Below the pieces are notes generated by a model. The model worked only from the letters and a program-made list of their open reading frames with translations, searched no databases and had not been told where the DNA came from. A stretch of DNA of 64,000 nt. Source: Myxococcales bacterium (lineage in GTDB: Bacteria > Myxococcota_A > Polyangia > Polyangiales > Polyangiaceae). The DNA lies in contig CAHJWM010000027.1 in assembly GCA_903642325.1 (NCBI GenBank), positions 1 through 64,000 on the forward strand, in the 5' to 3' direction. Numbering within the stretch: position 1 is the first letter of the stretch; every line of letters starts with the position of its first letter. The translations under genes were made by a program, and so were the position numbers. Shown piece after piece: positions 18,147-33,780 of this stretch.

Positions 18147-19700
18147 TCATTCAGGTGTGCCCAACTCAATGAGCCGTGCGTCAAGTGAGGCGATGAGCTC
18201 TGCGGCGGCATCCTGCGTCGACAGGCCTTCATGAATGGCCCGGAGCACGCGCTCTTTCTCCACGATCACGAGGCGACGCCGGACGCTGCGCCGCTCTTCC
18301 CCGGCGAGCACTGCGTCCGCAACGTGAAGGGCGCGGGCACGCGCGTTTGCCGCGCTGAGGCGCTCTTTGTATTCGGCGCGTAACTCCTGAAGCAGCGAGG
18401 TGTCGATGACCTGAGCGTTCGCGAGCACGTCCAATTCTTGCAGACCGGCACCAGCGGCCAACGCATCAGCGCGCGCGAATTGATAGCTGGCGGTCAGGAC
18501 GCGATCCGAAACAATCCCGAGCCGCTTGAGCAATGGCGCCATGGTACTGCCCTGTACGAGAATTGACACGACCACGACGCCGAAGACGACATTGACCAGG
18601 AACTGTCGGTGTGGAAATGCGAGCGGCAGCGCAAGCACGAGCACCATGCTGAGGCCGCCGCGGATACCACCCCAACTCATGATAGTGGCCCACCCGCGGG
18701 GCAGGCGCTCGCGAGACCGCCTAAGAAGCAGCGATACGACCCCGACCACGACCGCGCGTGCCGCCGTTGTCGCGACCCATGCAAGCAAAACAGTACGCCA
18801 CGCGGCCAGCACCTGCCAGAGCTCGACTTCAAAACCGATCAGCAAGAAGACCAGCGAATTTAAAGCGAACGCTAAGTAGGCCCAGAAACTAACGACCGCG
18901 ATCTTGGTCGTAGGCGACATTCCGGTGCGCGCGCCATAGTTGCCACAGAGCAGCCCAGCACTGACCGTCGCTAATACGCCCGATGCATGCGCCTCCTCCG
19001 CTAGCGCGAACGACCCCCAGGCGACCACGACGGTCACGGTAATCTCTATCATTGGGTCGTCCACCCAGTGAATGACTTGGCTACCGACGTAGCCGATCGC
19101 GGCGCCGATTAGAACCCCGAGTCCGCACGTGCGCACGAATTCGGAAGCGACGCTAACTGGGGTGACCGTTGACCCGCTGGCCAGGGTCAAAATCACTCCG
19201 AACAAAACGACGGCGGTACCGTCGTTCAGTAGGCTCTCGCCTTCCACCAGTACCCCGAGCCGCTTCGGCACACCGAGGCTCTTGAATAGTGCAACTACCG
19301 CAATTGGGTCTGTGGCAGCCACGATTCCGCCGAAGACAACGCCGTCAATCAGTTTGAAGCCTTGCTCCAAGCGCAGACCCTGCACCACCGGCGAAAGAAT
19401 GAAAGCCGTCACGCAAATCGCCGCAATCACCCCGGGTACGGCGAGCCCGCAGACCGCAAACTTGTTTGCCCAAAACTGCTTGGCATCCAAATGAAACGCC
19501 GCTTCGAAAAGCAGCCCGGGCAAGAACACGGCAAACAACAAATCTTTACTCAAGTGCGGGGCATGCACCCACTTTCCCGCTCCAATAATCAGGCCCGCAA
19601 CGACGAGCGCCGCCGTGTACGGCAACTTAAGCCAGCGTGCCACGAGCGCGACCGCGGTGGCGATTGCGAATAACGATATAACGACGAGCTCGAGGCGCAT
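18147..19700 (-). CDS. Sodium/proton antiporter (CPA1, NhaP-type)
   Basis: 517 residues: about 12 membrane helices (1-390) and a cytoplasmic helical tail. Signatures are GLIIGAG near 40, FLPGLLFEAAFHLD near 58 and the ion-site region ATDPIAVVALFKSLGVPKRL followed by EGESLLNDGTAVVLF, the standard CPA1 ND motif. It exchanges Na+ or K+ for H+ across the inner membrane. Upstream, on the same strand, lie the MscS, ATPase, secreted-protein and ClC genes, so it sits at the end of an ion-transport block, with its own 227-base leader. Confidence 0.92.
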   Translation of the reverse strand: MRLELVVISLFAIATAVALVARWLKLPYTAALVVAGLIIGAGKWVHAPHLSKDLLFAVFLPGLLFEAAFHLDAKQFWANKFAVCGLAVPGVIAAICVTAFILSPVVQGLRLEQGFKLIDGVVFGGIVAATDPIAVVALFKSLGVPKRLGVLVEGESLLNDGTAVVLFGVILTLASGSTVTPVSVASEFVRTCGLGVLIGAAIGYVGSQVIHWVDDPMIEITVTVVVAWGSFALAEEAHASGVLATVSAGLLCGNYGARTGMSPTTKIAVVSFWAYLAFALNSLVFLLIGFEVELWQVLAAWRTVLLAWVATTAARAVVVGVVSLLLRRSRERLPRGWATIMSWGGIRGGLSMVLVLALPLAFPHRQFLVNVVFGVVVVSILVQGSTMAPLLKRLGIVSDRVLTASYQFARADALAAGAGLQELDVLANAQVIDTSLLQELRAEYKERLSAANARARALHVADAVLAGEERRSVRRRLVIVEKERVLRAIHEGLSTQDAAAELIASLDARLIELGTPE

Positions 19701-19927
19701 GGGGTTCTTTCGCGTTTGGGTTCAAAGACCTAGCACCACGGATCGGATGTGCGTTCCGGATTCAGTCCGGCAAATCCGTTCTCGGTACTCTATCTGTCCC
19801 GACGTACGACAACCGGGGACGAGGTTCCGGGTCGTCATACTAGCTGGCATGAGGTCCTAAGGCAGTCGGGTCGTCGCAAACGCTTGCTTGCGAGTCCATG
19901 CCCTTTCGAACGTTCTGAAAGGCGCGG

Positions 19928-20842
19928 TTATAGCGCAACGGCCGGGCCAAGCATGCGGTGCAAAATCGCTGGCGGCCCGATGTCATGTTCTCGGAATGCC
20001 TCCAGCACACGAAAATGCACGTCTGTTTCGAACGGCTTTTCGAATTTGCAGTCATACACGTAAGGCCGCGCTTTCAAATGAAACGCTACGTAGTCCTGAA
20101 GAATGACTTGTTTGGCCAGAACGGGAATAGGCTGCGCCAAAAACACGTAAGGGCTCGTGAGGCATGCTTCTCGGATCAACTCCGCGGCTAAGACGACGTC
20201 TTGATCTATACCGACGTAGAAGTCCATGGCCACCTGCATTTCCAGCGCTCCATAGTTGCCGCTGGAAGTGACATCGGTAAACACCTTGTTGTTCGGGATC
20301 GTGATTATATTGTGATCGAGTGTATTCATGCGCACGCTACGCAGGCCGATCTGGATGATGTCCCCGTATTCTCCTCCGTATGACACACGGTCGCCGACCT
20401 GGAAGGGCCGATCGAACATGATGGTTATACCTGCGATGAATGACGCCACTAGGTCGCGCAGAGCAAAACCGACCGCGAACGCCAGCGCGCCGCCGATAAC
20501 GGTCAAGGCGGTCGGATCGAGCCGGATGCTGATGCTGAGCGTGAGACCAAATGTCAAAATGTAGAGGATGAAGCGCGCGGACGTCTGAACCTTTTGGATG
20601 GTCGGACGTCGGTTCGAAAAGCGCGTGCTCAAGCGCTCGCCCGCGTTCTCCACCAGTCGAATCAAGAACATCGCACCGACGATGATTGGCACCGACGCCG
20701 CAATTCCGCCCCAACGGACGAACTCAGCGATGCGGCCCACGTTCGGTACGTCCTGTGCGTACGCGGAGGTCGACTTGGCCATGACCAAGAGTAGCGATAC
20801 AAACATCGAGCCGGACCGACGCTTGAAGCATAAGGCGCTCAC
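19928..20842 (-). CDS. Mechanosensitive channel of the MscS family
   Basis: 304 residues. A signal-like N terminus (n-region KRRSGS, hydrophobic FVSLLLVM, then STSAYA and QD) precedes two or three membrane helices; the pore helix reads ALTVIGGALAFAVGFALRD, then the MscS beta domain begins RPFQVGDRV and GDIIQIGLRSVRMNTLDHN, as in the family. Start chosen as GTG 20842, overlapping the stop of the upstream ATPase gene (GTGA); ATG 20806 is an alternative that would drop the basic residues of the signal. It should open in the inner membrane under tension. Translational overlap with the ATPase gene strongly suggests one complex. Confidence 0.88.
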   Translation of the reverse strand: MSALCFKRRSGSMFVSLLLVMAKSTSAYAQDVPNVGRIAEFVRWGGIAASVPIIVGAMFLIRLVENAGERLSTRFSNRRPTIQKVQTSARFILYILTFGLTLSISIRLDPTALTVIGGALAFAVGFALRDLVASFIAGITIMFDRPFQVGDRVSYGGEYGDIIQIGLRSVRMNTLDHNIITIPNNKVFTDVTSSGNYGALEMQVAMDFYVGIDQDVVLAAELIREACLTSPYVFLAQPIPVLAKQVILQDYVAFHLKARPYVYDCKFEKPFETDVHFRVLEAFREHDIGPPAILHRMLGPAVAL

Positions 20843-23800
20843 CGGTTCACCAACAGGTGCCGCCGCTCCAGCAGCCCAACGACCGAACGCAGCCATGCCC
20901 ACTCGACCCTAAAGCCCTGGTCTTTTTCGATGAGGTAGCCGTGCTTCAAGCCAAACCTGACGGCAGTCAAAACATGTGCTTCGGCAAGTCGCGTGGCTGA
21001 TGCGATTTCGGCCGTCGTAGCAGGGTCCATTTGCATGATGGCGCGTAGGATGAAGAGCGCGGAGTCTGGCAATAACTCGAGCTCGCCGGCCTCTGGAGCG
21101 ACGAGCGGGCGTACCCGAGCAAGTCGCCTCGCGTCGCCGCTCAGAGACGCTCGCCAAGCCTCCAACGCCATGGCGGGGTTTCCTCGAGCATAATCCCAGA
21201 CCATCCGAAAGTAAGCGACCCTCCTAGCCGCCAATGCATCTTGTCGGTCAAGCTCGTCAGCGGCAGCAGGAAGTTTCTCAAGGAGGTCGACGAAGGTTGG
21301 CTCGAGGTCAGCTTCGGCGGTGCGCATAGTCAGCAGCGCACCAATCTGGTCGTCCGTCCAAGGGCCCAGTACGAACACCTCATCGAACAGGGGTCTCGCA
21401 TCGCGGGCTCGCTTCAAAAACGGCCAAATCACCGCGTCGATGGCGAACACCCACAAGGTGTCTGCGCAATGGCTACGTGCGAACGTGCTTGCCTCGTCGA
21501 ACGCTTCGAGCCCGCCGCGTAGGGGTTTGATCAGGCGCTGAGCGTCGTCGAGGAATACCAGCGACGGCGGGGTTGAGCCGGGTTCTCCCAGCTCAAAGCG
21601 CAATTGTTGCGCGGCATCCGTTCCGCACTGGACGCAAACCGAGTCGCTCACGTCGTCGGCAAGTCGACGCTGGAGTGACGACTTCCCCATCCCGCGAGCC
21701 CCGACGAGCGCGACCAGCCCTCCTCTCCGATCACGCGCGCGGGTGACCAACGCCGTCTGGTGAGAGTCTGCAAAGCAAGGCACCCACCCCTTCGAGCTCG
21801 TGCCCGGTGAGAGCGCGGCAAAGGCGGCTGGGGGCAGCGGTGTGGGCGCTTGCAACGGTTGGTCGCTAGCAAGACGAGCAAGCTCACGTTTGAACAGATA
21901 CGCATGAGCGCGGCGCGCCAAGTTGAAGCTCGTTACCCAGTTGCGAGAGGTTCTATAAACACCGACCGCGAAAAGCAGAACCGCCGCTACCATCGCGGCA
22001 AAGAAGCTCTTCCAGCCCCTGCGATTCGCAAGCACCCACGCTCGAAGCTCGGAATTGCGTCGCTCGCGCTCGACGCGTTCGAAGACGACTTCCCGCCACC
22101 AGCGAACGAGAACGAGGAAGACGGGGACGGCCGCTAACCAGCATGTCGAATATACCCAACTATAGACAGTCCCCTTTCCCACTAGTCTCGCGCTGACCCG
22201 CAGCACCAGAATAAACGCGACAACGACACGGCCAACGAGCCTCAGGGAGCGGAGCCGTAGCGCGCCCATCTCCTCTGCGCTTCGAGCTCCGGCGAAATGC
22301 GCTGTTGCAGCGATGGCATTGATTACATTCACGATCAACGCGCCGCCAAGCGTCCAGCCTACGACGATCTCGACCAATTGAAATTCGAGAAGCCGCTCGG
22401 CGTCGGTAGGCATGAGCCACAAGGTCACGGCGAAGAAAAGTAACCTTTCGAGAGTTCGATAAAAGCCCGTCAGAAATCGGACCGCCTTGCGAGGTGTGCT
22501 GGGCGCAGTGCGGCGCTCGCGCCGATCCGATTCAGCGAGCCGCTCGTCCAGCAACAGAATCCAGACCGCGCTTTTCCGGCGGAGTGCGACGAAACCAATG
22601 ATGGCTAAAATCCAAGGCACCAGTACGGCCGTGATTCCCCAGAACGAGACTCCTTTGATCTTTTGCCGGTGCCGCAGGTCGGCGATCCATCCCTGAGCGA
22701 CGTATCCGTGGTAGCGCAAGATGAGTAGTAGCTGACGAGCCTCTGATCGCGATTGGTCCAGGCCGGCTCGAGTAAAGCCCGTAATACCCGCCCGCTTGTC
22801 GATAGAGAGGGACGACAGCAGACCAAGCCGGTCTCGGTTCAACGCGTCGACTTCGTCGAGTAACGCAGAGGCTCGTTTTGCGCGAAACGCGCGTTCGTCG
22901 CTTCGAGCCGCGTCGATCTGCCTTTCGACCTCACGTCTGCGCGTCAGCACCCCCCCCTCCGCTATCTCACTAGCCACGTCGCTGAGTGAACTCGACCCAA
23001 GATCGGGAACCGCTGAGTCAGAGGTGTTTAGCGCGTCGAGGGCGTGGTCAAGGTCGTCTCGTGAGCCTCGAAGCGTGCGGCGCACGGCGTCGTAGGTGTC
23101 GTCCGCGGTGGAGGGCGTGGCCTTTGCGTCGTCCACCCGCTTTTGCCAACCCAAGAGGCTATCTTTGCGCGTTGCCAGCTCGACACCAGCGTCCTTGAAC
23201 TGGCGCTCGATGCCGGCAACGTCGCGCTGGATGCCAAGCAGCCGAGCGAGCTCCTTGTTTACGAGGCGCGTGGCCTCCGTGCGGGCCTGTTTCGCTGCCT
23301 CCAGGGCCTTGGTCCTTTCGACCTCGGCTTCGCGAGCCTGACGTTCCTCCGGCGTTTCTTTGGGTTTCGCGGCCTCTACTCGGGCTCTTTGCGCTGCCAA
23401 CAAAGACTCGCGCTGCGGTTGAGACAACGAGTAGAAGTCGAGGCGAGCCTGATCTAGGTGTTCGCGGTCTAGCCACTGAGGTAGGGACGTAACGGGTGCG
23501 CCTGCGGGTGCGGGCGCCGTACTCGAAGGAGATGCGGCCCACTTTGGCTTGGCTTTTGCCGCGAGCACGGCGGCGTGACCCGCACGATCTCTGAGTGCGC
23601 TGAGCATTGCTTCCAGTCGAGCGCGCTCGACCTGGACGGCGGTCTCGTCCGTCAGAATTGCATCGAATAAGCCCTGTGGTTCGATCGCCACGGGCAGCTG
23701 ACCCGCCAACAGCTCCCGTATCTCGACGACGCGGGGGTCCCCTTCTTCAACGCCGGCGTCGACAACCCGAGCGTCACTCGCGCCGCCAGCATCTTCGCCT

Positions 23801-23895
23801 GCGTGCGCTGCTGATGATACCGCCGCCTAGGCCAACAAGACGAGCAGGAACGACCATAGCCTCCGAAACCGATGTTTTGGGAAGCCATATCTCAT
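20839..23895 (-). CDS. Membrane coiled-coil protein with cytoplasmic P-loop ATPase; in-frame TAG at codon 23
   Basis: Read from ATG 23895, the product would be 1018 codons: a signal peptide (RFRRLWSFLLVLLA, then AAVSSAAHA), a periplasmic segment of about 380 residues rich in heptad-like coiled coil (about 165-400), six membrane helices (about 415-650), and a cytoplasmic ATPase with Walker A GARGMGKSS (about 732-740) and Walker B LVFLDD (about 779-784), then a helical and winged-helix-like end. A TAG stop at 23829-23827 interrupts the signal. If it is real, translation might start at TTG 23709 and give 956 residues without export signal. The periplasmic part recalls the large domain of MscK-type channels. 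MscS follows with a 4-base overlap. No named family is recognised. Confidence 0.7.
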
Positions 23896-24001
23896 CGACG
23901 GACGGTATAGGCCGGGTGCCTGGATCGCAACTCTGCGTGACGGCGAGTAACCGCCCCGAGCCCGTGCTCGGAGCGTTTTGAGCACGAACACCTCTCGACC
24001 T

Positions 24002-26338
24002 TCACAAGTTCGTGCCTACGTTCCCGATCGAGATGCTGGGGCCAAAGATAAAGGCGTCACGGCGGCCGGGGTCGGTACCCGAGTTGGAAATGCTCTCCTC
24101 GAACCAACCGTGAAGATTGATCGAAGCCTGCGTTGGTGAGGCACGGTTGGCGATCGGAACGCTGACGCCAAGCCCGCACACGGCGCCAACCTGGGTCAGC
24201 GATTGCCCCGTATCGCCGGTGGCATTGGCGAGCCCTATCGCCATGATGCCGGCTTCGAGACCCAAAAACCCCTCGTGACCGTCCGAGTCGAGCCACGTCA
24301 ATCGCGATAGCACGCCGAAGTTCAGTGTGAGCACGCCGCTGTGGTGAGCGTCACCAAATCGATATAAACCAGTCGGTATAGCCGTGGTTGCGTAAAGGCG
24401 GGCACGCCCCGTGCCCAACACAGCTGCCCACTTTACTTCGGGGGCGCCGGTTTGAACCTCGAGCGCGTTGACGTAGTGAGCTTCATCCGCCAAGTGCGAG
24501 ACCTTCACGACGACGCGGTCGAACGGCCGTCTCACACCTTGGATCCAAGCGAACAGCGGCTCCGGCCCCGGACGCAGCACGATAGTCGACGCCACATGCG
24601 CGTCACCGCGCGAAGCACCGTCTGCGTCGATCACATCGATATCGAGGCTGAGTTTCTGGGTCCCGAATTCGCTGGACAGGCGCTCTCGGTGAAAAATGAC
24701 TCGGCAACTATCGCGCAGGTCGAAGGGCAAATGCGCTTGCACACCTGGCATGACGCGCACCGTTCCCTCGAGCCCGGCCCCGCACACAAACTCCGCCAGC
24801 GGATCACGACCCAGGGCAGAGCGGCCAAATGGCGCGGTGACGTTCGCTTCGTGAATGCTCCGTTGAACAGGACTGTTCAAGACGGCAAGGTCTGCGTTCG
24901 CGAAGTCGCCCGACAGTGAGTCGTCTCGATAACCGAAGCGGAGTCCGACTTGGCCCGACGTATTTACATCTCCGAGCACGGTGAAGAGTGCGCCCCGCCG
25001 TGCCACGCTATAGGCCCCGGGCACCTCGAGCGGCACCAAATAGGCGTGGCCGGGTAACGCTCGCGTATGAACCCTCGCGGGCCGATTATTGGGGATGAAA
25101 GCCAAGTTGGGATGGCCCTCAATCTCTAGCTCGGCGCTTACGACGGGAGCCGCGGCGGTGTTGACGTGCGCGACCGCCACCGCAACGGCAGTGGCGGCGC
25201 GCTGCACCGCGGTGATCGACAAGCTCGGAGCGTCAGTGCTGCCGACGCGCAACAACGCCTCGGCTCCGGCGGAGTCCGTCTGAATGCTGAGCACGTCCAC
25301 GGGCGAGCTTCCGATCAAGAAACGGAGCTCTGGTAACTCTCCGGCGCATCGCCCCTCGATCCGCACCACCAACCGAGCATTTTCCACATCGCGCAACGGC
25401 GGAATAGAAACGACCGACATCGGACAATGCACTACCGCGAGGTGGGCGGTCGGCGTCGCGTCGAAGGCCGTCCCCTTTTCCAGGAAAACGCCTGGGGTCA
25501 GCTTGAATTTGACGTCGATTGAATTGACGTTGCTCGAGAGTGACCGCACGGTGAGCTTGTCTCGTACGATGTCGCAGCGCACGTCGCCGCAGTCGACTCC
25601 GGCGACGCTTTCAGCGTGCATCAGCGGCACTTCGCCGCTGCCGCTCGAGAGGTCAATCGACGCGTCCGCAGGTAACAGATTCGTAAGATTGACGCGCGCG
25701 GGGGTCAGATTGAAGTCGTCAGACGAAACCGCGCGGCCATTCACATCGAAAGTAGTTGCTTCTGCGCTGACACGGCCGCCCGCTGGGATCCACATGAGAT
25801 GGGGCCCCGGCGTCGTCGATATGTCGTGGCCCACGGTCCAAGTGCAGTGCTCGGCGTTCGGCTCGAGCTTGGGGCTTTGGCAGACATCGATTCCCGATGC
25901 GGCGCTGCTGCGCCAAGCAACGGACACCCCCGTTAGCCGACGGCCACGCGCTTCGATGAATGCCTGGTCGGGCGAAAAAACGATGCTTGCGGGGTCGATG
26001 CTTGGCCAAGTTCCCGTCGTCACTAGCTCGAGCGAGGCGGTGCTCGTCGCGCAGTTGGCAGCGGTAGGAGCGATCCTCAAAGCAACGGTCGAACCGACGG
26101 CGGCGGCGCTCGCGGGCGGCACTAGGGTGCGGGTCTTTTCGTCGAACAGCCACCCGCCACCCGGACTGCCACAGGGTACGCGCGCTTCGCCGAACGGAAT
26201 CGGCTTTCCGCCGTAGGGAGCTTGCAGTGTTTCCGCCCGCGCGTTTGCACCGAAAAAGAATACGAACAACGTTAAGGGCCAGGCAAGCGCAAGCACGAGC
26301 GGACTATGGGTCGCTCTGAATTCGCTGTACGAGTGCAT
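24002..26338 (-). CDS. Secreted beta-rich protein with C-terminal barrel-like domain, unknown function
   Basis: 778 residues. A signal peptide (LVLALAWPLTLFVFFFG, cleavage after ANARA) leads a long beta-rich, Ig-like body with several cysteine pairs, and the last 150 residues have alternating strands (VLTLNFGVLSRLTWL, FIFGPSISIGNV) like an outer-membrane barrel. I do not recognise a family. Start ATG 26338 is placed by the signal peptide; the frame is open to 26608 but inside the neighbouring gene. It lies 106 bases before the ATPase gene and 139 after the ClC gene, on the same strand, so it may supply the outer-membrane or periplasmic part of the ATPase-channel set. Confidence 0.65.
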   Translation of the reverse strand: MHSYSEFRATHSPLVLALAWPLTLFVFFFGANARAETLQAPYGGKPIPFGEARVPCGSPGGGWLFDEKTRTLVPPASAAAVGSTVALRIAPTAANCATSTASLELVTTGTWPSIDPASIVFSPDQAFIEARGRRLTGVSVAWRSSAASGIDVCQSPKLEPNAEHCTWTVGHDISTTPGPHLMWIPAGGRVSAEATTFDVNGRAVSSDDFNLTPARVNLTNLLPADASIDLSSGSGEVPLMHAESVAGVDCGDVRCDIVRDKLTVRSLSSNVNSIDVKFKLTPGVFLEKGTAFDATPTAHLAVVHCPMSVVSIPPLRDVENARLVVRIEGRCAGELPELRFLIGSSPVDVLSIQTDSAGAEALLRVGSTDAPSLSITAVQRAATAVAVAVAHVNTAAAPVVSAELEIEGHPNLAFIPNNRPARVHTRALPGHAYLVPLEVPGAYSVARRGALFTVLGDVNTSGQVGLRFGYRDDSLSGDFANADLAVLNSPVQRSIHEANVTAPFGRSALGRDPLAEFVCGAGLEGTVRVMPGVQAHLPFDLRDSCRVIFHRERLSSEFGTQKLSLDIDVIDADGASRGDAHVASTIVLRPGPEPLFAWIQGVRRPFDRVVVKVSHLADEAHYVNALEVQTGAPEVKWAAVLGTGRARLYATTAIPTGLYRFGDAHHSGVLTLNFGVLSRLTWLDSDGHEGFLGLEAGIMAIGLANATGDTGQSLTQVGAVCGLGVSVPIANRASPTQASINLHGWFEESISNSGTDPGRRDAFIFGPSISIGNVGTNL

Positions 26339-26477
26339 CTGATTGCGGCCAGCGTACTCAAAAGATGCCCAGAAACAACGGCGACGGAAGCGACGATCGC
26401 CTCTCACTCGCCGGGGAGACCGCGTGTCATTTTGACTCGCCTGCCGCAGCCAAAGCCGTTTCCCGAGAGCAGTCGTG

Positions 26478-28424
26478 TCAGGCCCTGGGAGCTTTCGACG
26501 AGCTGGCTTCTTTGCCGCTACTTTCGGCGCGCTCGGCGCGCACCGCGGCTTTGAAGTACACCTCAGCGATATCACCCTCATCGAGCATGCCAATGACTCG
26601 ATTGTCATTCGATACGATTGGCACTCCTCGAAGATCGTTGGCTATCATGGCTTCGGTCGCGGAACGGAGGTCATCCTCCGGCTTCACCGAAACCGCTCGT
26701 TGGAGCAAGTCGCCCACCACCACCCAAGGGGCGTCGGAGAGCTCGGTGAACAGCATACGTAGCGCACTGCTCGTGACTAGGCCAACGAGTCGATCCTGAC
26801 GGTCAAGCACCGGAAACACGCGTTGGTCGCCCGCGCGCGCCACACTGGGAACGAGGTCGGCCGTCGGCGTGTGTTGAAAAAGACAGATGGGTGCAGCTTG
26901 CCCCGTCATCAGGTCGCTCACGCGGATCGTCCGCAGGACGTCGAGCAAGAGCGCATCGCGGTGAACCGGTGAATCGCGCTGCGTGGGCATCTGGGACGAG
27001 TAGAGGGATCGATTCCGTAGCGCGACGAACGCGATGCCCTGCGCCAACATGAGAGGGACCAATAGGTCGTAATTCCCTGCTAATTCGCAGACGAGCACCA
27101 AGGCGCTGAGCGGAACGTGGGCAATGCCGCCGTAAAAGGTGCCCATGCCGACGAGCGCGAATGCCCCCGGTTGCAGATGGGGGTCGTGCGTCAATAGCTG
27201 AGCCGCGCGGCCAAAGGCGCCGCCAAATAAGCCACCGATGGCGAGTGACGGTGCGAAGTCGCCCGCACTGCCACCGGAACCAATCGTCAGCGACGCCGCG
27301 AACAATTTTGCTAAGGAAAGCGCGACGAGCAACCCGACCGCCACCCAACCGACCGGCAGCCAGGGGGATCCGGAGATCGCCATCTGCACGGCTCCATAGC
27401 CACCGCCCATGATGCCGAGCCCTTCGCCCGGCGCGTGCAGGTAGTTTCCAACTAGGATCACGGCCGGCGTGCATAGCGCTCCAAGAGCAAGCCCGCCCGC
27501 AGCCGGGCGCGTCCAATCCGGAACGGGCAAGCGATCGAATAAGCCGTGAACACCTCGGTAAACACGCACGAAGATGGCCGCAAGCGCCGCGATCAATAAC
27601 GCCAAAAGTCCGAACAGCGGCAGGTGAGCCGGCACGAACGGGAACCTGGGCACGCGGGCGAAGAGCGTGCTCTCGCCGAAGATAGAGATGATCACCGAGT
27701 AAGACACGACGCTCGCGAGCACGGACGGGATCAATGCTTCCGACTCGAAGCCGTCTTTGTAGAGGACCTCGACCGCAAGCAAAGCGGAGCCGAGCGGGCA
27801 ACGAAAGACGGCCGACATGCCGGCCGCTACCCCCGCCACCATCAGCACTCGACGTTCACGGTGGCTTACCCTGAGCCAGCGGCCAACCAGGCCCCCGAGA
27901 GCGCCGCCAATCTGCATCGTTGGTCCCTCCCGACCGCCCGCGCCGCCAGTGCCGAGTGTGAACATCGATGCCAGTGACTTGACCCAGATGACTCGGCGCC
28001 GAATGAGACCGCCGTGATGATGAAACGCTTCGATCATCGCGTCTCCTCCCCCGCCCCGCGTTTCCGGCGCCAACCGAGAAACTAACCCCGCGGCAAGGCC
28101 GCCCAAGGCAGGCAAGATCAATAGCAGCCAAGGTCGAAAGTGGTGTACGCCCCCGCCCGCTGCGAACGTCTCACCGTCTGCACGCAACGGTACGTAGCCG
28201 ACTAGCTCCTCGAGCAGCAAACGTTGCATGTATTCGAAGCCGGCAAAGAGGGCCGCCCCGACCAGACCCGCCGCAACGCCGACCAAAATCCCGTCGCGCA
28301 GATTGCGACCGACCACACCCAACTCGAGGCGCTCGATCAACCCCAGCGCTGCCCGCGGAATGGCTCGTTCACGTGCTCCCGCGAGGCGACGGAGCAGCGA
28401 AGTGACACGACGATGGGCGGACAA
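26478..28424 (-). CDS. ClC-family chloride channel/transporter with CBS domains
   Basis: 648 residues. The ClC core is clear: GGAGGREGPTMQIGG (gating glutamate in GREGP, about 160), GSGGSAGDFAPSLAIGG (about 395), and about 10-12 membrane helices. The C-terminal 140 residues hold two CBS repeats (VSDLMTG and GMLDEGD regions), which often bind adenine nucleotides. The GREGP glutamate suggests a Cl-/H+ exchanger rather than a passive channel, though a second proton glutamate cannot be assigned by eye. TTG 28424 is the first start after an in-frame stop. Probably the first gene of the ion-transport block. Confidence 0.9.
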   Translation of the reverse strand: MSAHRRVTSLLRRLAGARERAIPRAALGLIERLELGVVGRNLRDGILVGVAAGLVGAALFAGFEYMQRLLLEELVGYVPLRADGETFAAGGGVHHFRPWLLLILPALGGLAAGLVSRLAPETRGGGGDAMIEAFHHHGGLIRRRVIWVKSLASMFTLGTGGAGGREGPTMQIGGALGGLVGRWLRVSHRERRVLMVAGVAAGMSAVFRCPLGSALLAVEVLYKDGFESEALIPSVLASVVSYSVIISIFGESTLFARVPRFPFVPAHLPLFGLLALLIAALAAIFVRVYRGVHGLFDRLPVPDWTRPAAGGLALGALCTPAVILVGNYLHAPGEGLGIMGGGYGAVQMAISGSPWLPVGWVAVGLLVALSLAKLFAASLTIGSGGSAGDFAPSLAIGGLFGGAFGRAAQLLTHDPHLQPGAFALVGMGTFYGGIAHVPLSALVLVCELAGNYDLLVPLMLAQGIAFVALRNRSLYSSQMPTQRDSPVHRDALLLDVLRTIRVSDLMTGQAAPICLFQHTPTADLVPSVARAGDQRVFPVLDRQDRLVGLVTSSALRMLFTELSDAPWVVVGDLLQRAVSVKPEDDLRSATEAMIANDLRGVPIVSNDNRVIGMLDEGDIAEVYFKAAVRAERAESSGKEASSSKAPRA

Positions 28425-31116: not shown

Positions 31117-33780
31117 CTATGGATGCTGATTGGCATCCGCTTCCGCCTCGGCATGGAACCGCGCGGCTTCCTGGGCGTTACCAAGTGCGGCGTAGGCTTC
31201 GGCCAGATCCTGACGGGCCTGTGGCAAAGCACTCACTTGGGAGCTGGCTCGCCGAATCAAGATGTCGTACCCGGCTCGGCTTTCGTGTTGCGCTTCTGCG
31301 TAACGGCGCTGACCGACCAGCGCGTGGCCTAAGCTGACGCGAGCATAGCCCACCCTCACGGCATCCGGGCGACCGTTGTCTGCGTAGATGGCGAGCGTTT
31401 CGCGCAGCATGGGCTCGGCCTTGCTGAAATCTCCTCGCGCCATGGCCACGCTTGCCAGGTTGGAGAGCGCAACTCCTACGTAGGGGTGGTTGTTCCCGTG
31501 GAGCGCGCGTTGGATCGTCAGCATGCGTTGAAAGTCCGCCTCTGCCTCGTCGAATTTCTGTTGGTTTCGGGCCACTATCCCGAGGTCATTCAGGGTAGAC
31601 GCGATATTTGGATTCATCGGGGGGTAGACGCGCTCATTGATAGCCAACGCTCGACGCAAAAGTGGCTCCGCCTCGCGATCCTTACCTTCATGGTCGAGCG
31701 CGCGAGCTAGCTGCAACAGATTCGACGCCGTCGCATAGTGGTCCGGTCCGAACCAATGCTCGGTGATCACCAGGGCTTGTCGATGTAGTTTCTCGGCTTC
31801 CGAGTAGTGCCCCAAGTCTTGGTCGATCGCACCCAGGTTGATCAGGTCGTCTGCCACGTTGGCATGCGTTTCGCCCAAGTTTTTTCGATCCATCGCCAAG
31901 AGCCGCTGGTTCTGCGAGCGCGACTTCTCATAGTTGCCCAAGTAATATTGAGCGTTGGCCAGATCGGAGAGCGCGAAGCGAAGCTCCAATGGCTGGTCTC
32001 CACGCGCCTCCAGCAGGCGTGTGGCTTCATTCAAGATTGCGATCGAGGCCGGATAGTTGCCGGCCTCCACCAACACATGGCCCAACGCCGAGAGCGCGTG
32101 ACCGAGCGCTGGGTGATCGGCGGGTAGCGTACGCCGATCGATGGCGACGGCTTTCCGCACCAGCGCCTCGGCGTCCTTCCACCGCGCTTGCTCCACACGC
32201 AGCTGACCGACCGCGACCAGGCTTTCTGCGGTTTCCGGGCTGTCCGCGCCGAACACAGACGTCCTTTTGGCGAGCGCTTCCTGAAGCAGCCGATCCGCCC
32301 CGTCGAAGCGGCCGAGATCGCCGTACAGCGTACCCAGGGTTTGAAATAGCTGGGCTTGCACTGGGGGATCACCATCCAGGGCCCGCGCTTCACGCACGCC
32401 GCGGTCGACCAGCGTCAGCACGCGCAGGTTCTCCGACGGGCCCACGTCTTCCTCACCTCCTTTGAACAAGCGCGTCATGAAGCGCTCGATACGCTGGGTA
32501 CGCGCGACCTCTGCCAAGGCGGCGTTGCGAGCATGCGTCAGGCGCACGGTAAAAAAGACGACCACGCCGATCACTGCCGCAAACGCGACGGATGCGAGCG
32601 TCAGCGCCGTGCGATTGCGGCGCGCGAATTTGCTTAGCCGGTAACTCAGCGAATCGGGGCGCGCTTCGAGCGGCTCGTTCTTCGAAAAATGATCGATATC
32701 GCGGATCAGTGCGTCCACCGAGCGATAGCGACGCGCGGGTTCGTAGTGCATGGCAGATGAAACCAACACATCGAGATCCGCCCATGCGGCATGGCTGGCG
32801 AACAGGTTCGGGCCCGCGAGTCCGCTCTTGTTTCGCTGAGCCACTTGCAACGAGGGCTTGGGCGGCGCGTGCTGAGCCAGAATTGGCGCCGCTTTGCTTG
32901 GCGATTGGCCCGGGGTGGTGAATGGCACGCTGCCGGTGAGTAACTGATACAGAATGACCCCCAGCGAGTAGATGTCGGTGTAGAGGCCGACGGCAGCCCC
33001 CTGCAACTGTTCGGGCGCGGCGTAAGCCGGCGTCATGAAGCTCAAACCTTGAGTCTTTTCCTCGGACAGTCCTGCTTCTGCGCTCATTAATTGTTTGGCG
33101 ATGCCAAAATCGAGTAAACGCACGCTGCCGTCCGACTTGACCAAGATATTGGAGGGCTTCAGGTCGCGGTGGATGAGCGCCAAGCCATGCGCGTATTGCA
33201 CCGCCTCGCACACCGCGCGAAATAGCGCGAGCCGCTCGGTTAGCGAGGCCTCGCGCCTATCGCAGTGCTCGACGAGCGGAGTGCCCTGCACGTACTCCAT
33301 GACGAAATAAGGCGTGCCATCGGGCAGCGTGTCAGCGTCGTACAGCCGTGCAATCGAAGCATGATCGAGGCTGGCCAGAAACTGTTGTTCTTTCGAAAAG
33401 CGTAACCGACGCTCCGCAGAGACCCACGAATCACGCAACACTTTGAGCGCGACCATTCCGCCCAAATCTTCGCGCTCAGCCAGGTACACGACGCCCATCC
33501 CGCCCTCGCCCAGCTTGCGCTCGATCCGATAGCGCCCGATGCGGCGGGCGCGACCGAGCAACGGATCGGCGTCGTCCAGCACGGCGTGCGCCACCTCTGC
33601 GAGCTCGCGGTCGAGCACACAGGCACCGAGCTCGTCCTCTCGCAGCATGCTCGAGATTTTTAGACGCAGTGTTTCGTCACCCGCACAGGCGCCGGCCAGA
33701 AAGGGCGCGCGCTCGGACGCCGGTAGACCGGTTGCTTCGTGAAACAGGGCCTGGATGCGTTGCCATCGACTGCTGTCCAA
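31117..33780 (-). CDS. Ser/Thr protein kinase with TPR sensor tail
   Basis: 887 residues. N-terminal segment of about 80 residues, then a Hanks-type kinase: glycine loop GEGGMGVVYL (91-100), ATP lysine K113, catalytic HRDLKPSN (D206), DFG 224-226, APE loop AYAAPEQL. One membrane helix at about 410-432 (TLASVAFAAVIGVVVFF) and then about ten tetratricopeptide repeats outside the kinase (450-880), likely protein-binding. It is 47 bases downstream of an ECF sigma factor gene and co-directional. Kinases in this position can control the sigma factor by phosphorylation in place of an anti-sigma factor; here that is inference. Confidence 0.93.
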   Translation of the reverse strand: MDSSRWQRIQALFHEATGLPASERAPFLAGACAGDETLRLKISSMLREDELGACVLDRELAEVAHAVLDDADPLLGRARRIGRYRIERKLGEGGMGVVYLAEREDLGGMVALKVLRDSWVSAERRLRFSKEQQFLASLDHASIARLYDADTLPDGTPYFVMEYVQGTPLVEHCDRREASLTERLALFRAVCEAVQYAHGLALIHRDLKPSNILVKSDGSVRLLDFGIAKQLMSAEAGLSEEKTQGLSFMTPAYAAPEQLQGAAVGLYTDIYSLGVILYQLLTGSVPFTTPGQSPSKAAPILAQHAPPKPSLQVAQRNKSGLAGPNLFASHAAWADLDVLVSSAMHYEPARRYRSVDALIRDIDHFSKNEPLEARPDSLSYRLSKFARRNRTALTLASVAFAAVIGVVVFFTVRLTHARNAALAEVARTQRIERFMTRLFKGGEEDVGPSENLRVLTLVDRGVREARALDGDPPVQAQLFQTLGTLYGDLGRFDGADRLLQEALAKRTSVFGADSPETAESLVAVGQLRVEQARWKDAEALVRKAVAIDRRTLPADHPALGHALSALGHVLVEAGNYPASIAILNEATRLLEARGDQPLELRFALSDLANAQYYLGNYEKSRSQNQRLLAMDRKNLGETHANVADDLINLGAIDQDLGHYSEAEKLHRQALVITEHWFGPDHYATASNLLQLARALDHEGKDREAEPLLRRALAINERVYPPMNPNIASTLNDLGIVARNQQKFDEAEADFQRMLTIQRALHGNNHPYVGVALSNLASVAMARGDFSKAEPMLRETLAIYADNGRPDAVRVGYARVSLGHALVGQRRYAEAQHESRAGYDILIRRASSQVSALPQARQDLAEAYAALGNAQEAARFHAEAEADANQHP

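Follow-up and report, generated by a model that had tools for sequence, protein, structure and literature searches.

Channels of the MscS family serve in textbooks as the example of gating controlled solely by membrane tension. Their large Escherichia coli members, MscK (KefA) and MscM (YjeP), carry extra domains and are poorly understood. In a 64,000-nucleotide stretch of contig CAHJWM010000027.1 (assembly GCA_903642325.1) from a Myxococcales bacterium, referred to here as the window, an MscS-family gene is directly preceded by a gene encoding a membrane-anchored AAA+ ATPase, and this gene pair is the subject of the present work. The ATPase open reading frame (ORF), as it stands open in the window, occupies positions 20839-23709 of the minus strand (956 aa, TTG start) and encodes a periplasmic helical domain, a membrane "paddle" and an AAA+ domain with a winged helix; the MscS-family gene follows at 19928-20842 of the same strand (304 aa, GTG start at 20842) and encodes a protein with its own signal-peptide-like N-terminus. 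The ATPase stop codon and the MscS start codon share the four bases GTGA at 20839-20842 (minus strand). An initial annotation of the locus had reported this overlap, which was verified in the window sequence, together with five co-directional genes in the transcription order ClC with CBS domains, secreted protein, ATPase, MscS and CPA1 antiporter; this order and the minus strand were also verified, and the shared strand and order of the five genes are by themselves weak evidence. We propose that the ATPase and MscS probably form one channel system, a split and ATP-responsive relative of MscK.

The MscS gene encodes the MS_channel beta domain and pore helix (PF00924, E 5.7e-18, over the cut-off), which places the product in the MscS family; it matches MscS structures in the PDB down to 6e-14 and aligns with the C-terminal core of MscK at 99.3% in profile alignment. 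The AlphaFold2 model of the full-length ATPase has a mean predicted local distance difference test score (pLDDT) of 86.9 and can be divided into three parts, all encoded on the minus strand: a periplasmic helical and coiled-coil region (residues 1-351, positions 22657-23709), a membrane region (residues 356-593, positions 21931-22644), and a cytosolic AAA+ domain of the ORC/Cdc6/RuvB/TnsC-like kind with a C-terminal winged helix (residues 621-956, positions 20842-21849), the last assigned from the model and from fold searches. The initial annotation had described a periplasmic coiled coil and several membrane helices; an N-terminal helical region is present, and the membrane part can be refined to five transmembrane (TM) helices and one segment that looks interfacial or re-entrant: the loops alternate in charge in the pattern that five TM helices would give, and the sixth segment is positively flanked on both sides. 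This charge pattern puts the AAA+ domain in the cytosol, where the same annotation had placed a Walker A/B ATPase, and both motifs are present.

In an alignment of 40 homologues, the Walker A motif GARGMGKS (21679-21702, minus strand) has Lys in 34 sequences and Arg in six, the Walker B motif LVFLDD (21544-21561, minus strand) has Asp as its first acid in 35 and Glu in four (thus D or E in 39/40) with a variable second acid, and in the GNP lid motif (21175-21183, minus strand) G843 and P845 are invariant. The winged helix follows the AAA+ lid, and model residues ~872-952 align within ORC/Cdc6 and TnsC chains; the AAA+ domain as a whole is closest to ORC/Cdc6, RuvB and TnsC. With these proteins and with STAND-type ATPases it shares the AAA+ fold, the C-terminal winged helix, the Walker motifs and the GNP lid motif, whereas it differs from them in being membrane-anchored through an MscK-like paddle or, in a second class described below, an antiporter, and in that its surroundings showed no sign of DNA processing or defence. 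The C-terminal superstructure-forming repeats of STAND proteins were not found in the ATPase, which ends ~80 residues past the lid. Judged by its motifs, the protein would act as a nucleotide switch rather than as a strong motor.

The N-terminus of the window copy is interrupted. The ORF opens at TTG because an in-frame TAG (23827-23829, minus strand) cuts a signal-peptide region at 23788-23895 (minus strand) that starts at the ATG at 23895; the alignment with the copy of a genus mate extends across both sides of the TAG, which may be a sequence error, recent damage or a read-through codon. Compared with this genus mate, and with dS saturated, both genes show the ratio of nonsynonymous to synonymous substitution (dN/dS) of purifying selection: MscS has a value of about 0.09, the ATPase one of about 0.18. 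When N-termini were scanned with contig-truncated ATPases excluded, signal-peptide-like sequences were present in 30 of 33, and the window copy, read from its TTG, was among the three without one; the N-terminal half of the ATPase is thus predicted to be exported. Two homologues (L047:7786 and L048:1918) have lipoprotein-like signal peptides with a cysteine after the hydrophobic stretch, which suggests that their periplasmic ends are lipid-anchored, and in two others (L041 and L042) the conserved N-terminal motif DPxxLFxVDL occurs twice, a predicted duplication of a periplasmic element.

Because a Foldseek search with the model of the whole chain had no listed matches other than AAA+ proteins, the N-terminal half (residues 99-635) was folded alone (pLDDT 89.1, predicted template modelling score 0.77) and searched against 350,542 PDB chains. 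E. coli MscK took the first two ranks, with its closed and its open structure, each at a probability of 0.87 and with modest E-values of 0.014 and 0.035; the next-best match had a probability of 0.38 or below. Profile comparison gave the same register: in hhalign, residues 99-635 matched a seven-sequence MscK/MscM profile at 90.6% (E 1.3e-6, 247 columns), with ATPase residues ~280-534 aligned to MscK 405-674, a stretch that includes the end of the periplasmic region (residues ~280-351) as well as membrane segments. Against this score of 66.9, the best of 59 block-shuffled controls reached 42.3, the reversed profile 33 and an unrelated antiporter 16-17. The likeness emerges only with the MscK family profile and the N-terminal half; the full ATPase profile gave no hhalign match to the single E. 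coli MscK sequence. The families listed by Pfam for 19 ATPases, at E-values as high as 1, did not include MscS_TM (PF12794) or MscS_porin (PF12795), and PF12794 was not found in the window genome. Few genomes of the phylum (seven of 141) encode MscK itself, and the window genome does not. On the agreement between profile and fold, the periplasmic and membrane half of the ATPase is remotely homologous to the N-terminal half of MscK/MscM, as the initial annotation had surmised in likening it to the extra domain of MscK on a separate polypeptide. MscK is a single chain with ~500 periplasmic residues and eleven TM helices (PMC9653487). The E. coli channels and the present pair have in common an exported periplasmic helical domain, a peripheral TM paddle and an MscS core, and differ in that these are divided here between two polypeptides with overlapping genes (no fused ATPase-MscS ORF was noticed in the loci examined) and in that the ATPase adds a cytosolic AAA+ domain with winged helix which MscK lacks. 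By model and profile, then, the pair amounts to an MscK in two pieces to which an ATP switch has been added.

The pairing of the two genes is obligate in nearly all loci. ATPases of the window type (class 1) were collected at 58 loci, partly non-independent, across the phylum of the window and Alphaproteobacteria, including three plasmids, and the next gene encodes MscS in 56 of the 58; a loose-motif script had also scored the remaining two (L037 and L135), which were removed by hand as exceptions. The ATPase and MscS genes overlap by a 4-bp stop/start in 20 class-1 pairs. The sampled genomes hold few MscS genes each, and the adjacency is far beyond chance; as the class-1 ATPases have diverged down to 16-20% identity, it is also old and has been kept. 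The initial annotation had considered that ATPase homologues might lie mostly away from MscS genes, and this is clearly not the case. ATPase homologues were detected in 22 of 59 close relatives and, in an even sample of the phylum, in 37 of 141 genomes. Among the close relatives, a clear identity gap separates the cognate MscS subfamily from unrelated MscS paralogues, and MscS proteins at least 39% identical to that of the window are confined to ATPase-bearing genomes. Across the phylum sample, members of the cognate MscS subfamily are present in 38/141 genomes, all 38 with an ATPase upstream; five of these had been missed in the ATPase search, and in all five a divergent ATPase lies directly upstream of MscS. 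As for the two exceptions, MscS lies ~3.5 kb downstream of the ATPase at L135, and in genome G016 the ATPase and its cognate MscS are unlinked, yet both are retained. The ATPase and MscS genes are a conserved two-gene unit, and the pair appears to decay together: at two loci (L138 in G005:C347 and L137 in G111:C646) both genes are left as fragments or remnants. In G016 the ATPase gene (L037:5451-7418) is followed by a Castor/Pollux-type RCK channel gene, and the cognate MscS is found at L119, on a different contig.

The pair is also present in Brevundimonas basaltis, on Novosphingobium plasmids and on the Caulobacter plasmid pNIBR24541, where the arrangement is ATPase-MscS-MscS with two MscS genes in tandem. 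In trees, some nodes of which have low support, the Novosphingobium copies are nearest to a different branch of the family than the Brevundimonas and Caulobacter copies, which suggests that the pair was transferred more than once. On pNIBR24541 (L116) the genes are flanked by a DEAD/DEAH helicase gene and type IV secretion genes.

The paired MscS proteins form a single clade, separate from 12 unpaired MscS proteins. At matched beta-domain divergence, the cytosolic domain of the paired proteins has an identity of 0.41 against 0.22, in a comparison of few pairs, and this unusual degree of conservation is what a docking site would be expected to show. The partner has the beta domain and pore helix of MscS (YggB)-type three-TM channels, and is distinguished from them by its membership in a dedicated clade with an obligate ATPase neighbour, by a divergent, conserved C-terminal domain and, in the window clade, by a signal-peptide-like N-terminus.

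A second class was found among weak ATPase hits. Class 2 consists of nine proteins of 1400-1600 residues (L149-L157, e.g. L153:2638-7431) with a cation/proton antiporter-type membrane region at the N-terminus (Pfam Na_H_Exchanger in two of three scanned), then a coiled coil, and at the end the same AAA+ domain and winged helix (profile E 2e-39); a divergent MscS gene follows in 9/9 loci. Since the AAA+ module and the MscS neighbour are what the two classes share, the AAA+ module, and not the paddle, is the common partner of MscS. Like Kef-type CPA antiporters with regulatory domains, the class-2 proteins are Na_H_Exchanger proteins with a C-terminal regulatory region; in class 2, in contrast, that region is a coiled coil with AAA+, and an MscS gene lies next to it.

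In the mechanism that we propose, the MscS gene would supply the pore core. From the ATPase gene would come the exported helical domain in the periplasm, the peripheral paddle of five TM helices and, in the cytosol, the AAA+ switch of the ORC/Cdc6 type with its winged helix. The paddle subunits would pack around the MscS ring, as the N-terminal half of MscK does, which would bring the AAA+ domain next to the vestibule on the cytosolic side. The tension at which the channel opens would depend on whether ATP or ADP is bound and on a signal from the periplasm, such as envelope strain or ions, so that solute release would be tied to the energy state of the cell. The gene pairing and co-occurrence, the homologies, the AAA+ motifs and the predicted topology are results of the analysis, whereas we infer the physical complex, its stoichiometry, the ATP-dependent gating and the signal sensed. 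Contact with MscS is argued by the Rosetta-stone principle, since MscK carries the homologue of the ATPase paddle in one chain with the pore. A broader form of the proposal is a serious, if tentative, possibility: an interchangeable membrane AAA+ switch, built on either an MscK-type paddle or a cation/proton antiporter, would set the MscS threshold by ATP/ADP and a periplasmic signal, and one regulatory ATPase family would control several ion-flux proteins.

Several observations weigh against the proposal of a split, ATP-responsive MscK relative. The best MscK fold match has an E-value of 0.014, weaker than the usual line of 0.001, and its VIA Z of 8.1 is unremarkable among helical proteins; the peripheral TM helices number about five in the ATPase and eight in MscK; and class 2, with no paddle, means that the paddle is dispensable in some ATPase-MscS pairings. 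Given the replacement of the Walker A Lys by Arg and the variable second acid of Walker B, some members may hydrolyse ATP slowly or not at all. The mirror-tree correlation between ATPase and MscS (r = 0.87) is as expected for any co-inherited pair, and the window copy of the ATPase itself carries the TAG within its signal peptide.

The gene overlap would also be accounted for by translational coupling alone, the split in G016 indicates that linkage is not strictly required, and other ion-transport genes lie beside the pair in some relatives. The two proteins could therefore be partners that form no stable complex, i.e., an ATP-dependent sensor of envelope or osmotic stress and a separate release channel coupled by operon or pathway only. 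We consider this unlikely in view of the homology between the paddle and the very domain fused to the pore in MscK, and of the dedicated clade of paired MscS with its unusually conserved cytosolic domain, the comparison set for which is small. AAA+ proteins are often remodellers, and an assembly factor that folds, inserts or assembles the MscS ring, and stays outside the gating complex, would be expected to have its dedicated substrate encoded beside it, as is observed. A channel-like paddle would be superfluous in such a factor, the degenerate catalytic residues of some members speak against a motor, and MscS-type channels of E. coli assemble without help; this explanation seems to us very improbable.

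It is also quite improbable that the pair couples a STAND-like sensor to a pore as its effector, as in anti-phage or cell-death signalling, where the ATPase would detect a trigger, switch to its ATP state and open MscS, and the cell would be depolarised. The ORC/STAND-like AAA+ domain with its weak NACHT, NB-ARC and nSTAND matches, the invariant GNP motif and winged helix, and the patchy distribution with copies on plasmids would all agree with such a role. However, no PADLOC model gave a real match to the pair over most of the protein, the neighbours are mostly ordinary housekeeping or transport genes, the AAA+ domain ends in the winged helix with no repeat sensor domain, and the N-terminal half is MscK-like.

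An ATP-dependent partner of MscS had been put forward in the initial annotation as an undescribed system, and we found no description of one in the open-access full-text literature (subscription journals were outside the scope). The pair would be an MscK-type channel with a regulatory part not known in channels of that kind. If the proposal of a split, ATP-responsive channel is true, the sensor half and the pore reside on two proteins, each of which can be expressed or mutated without the other, what the extra domains do becomes directly testable, and the energy state joins the inputs of a mechanosensitive channel. The pairing in 38/141 sampled phylum genomes and on plasmids of another phylum means that it is not a curiosity of one strain.

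Further ion-transport genes adjoin the pair in some class-1 loci, namely a second MscS, ClC, a Usp-domain antiporter or a Kir-type channel; they fit a role in ion and turgor control, but vary by genome. The Kir-type gene, for an inward-rectifier potassium channel, is at L147:4934-5815, immediately downstream of the pair. In the window, the genes for the ClC channel with CBS domains (26478-28424), the secreted protein (24002-~26338, 778 aa from an internal Met) and the CPA1 antiporter (18147-19700), all on the minus strand, are neighbours outside the conserved unit. CPA1 also adjoins the pair in the genus mate (L032) and a ClC gene lies near it at L038, but the two transporters, taken in the initial annotation as members of the set, are near the pair in few relatives only and were rejected as general parts of the unit. 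The secreted protein, which had been suggested to complete an envelope-spanning unit, was likewise rejected as a third component on synteny: of the 59 relatives, 12 encode a homologue and several of these have no ATPase; where both occur, the homologue is on another contig or 7 Mb away. The expectation that the three genes stay together in many Myxococcota accordingly holds for the ATPase-MscS pair and fails for the secreted protein. Elsewhere in the window, positions 31117-33780 (minus strand) encode, from the translation, a serine/threonine protein kinase with TPR-like repeats.

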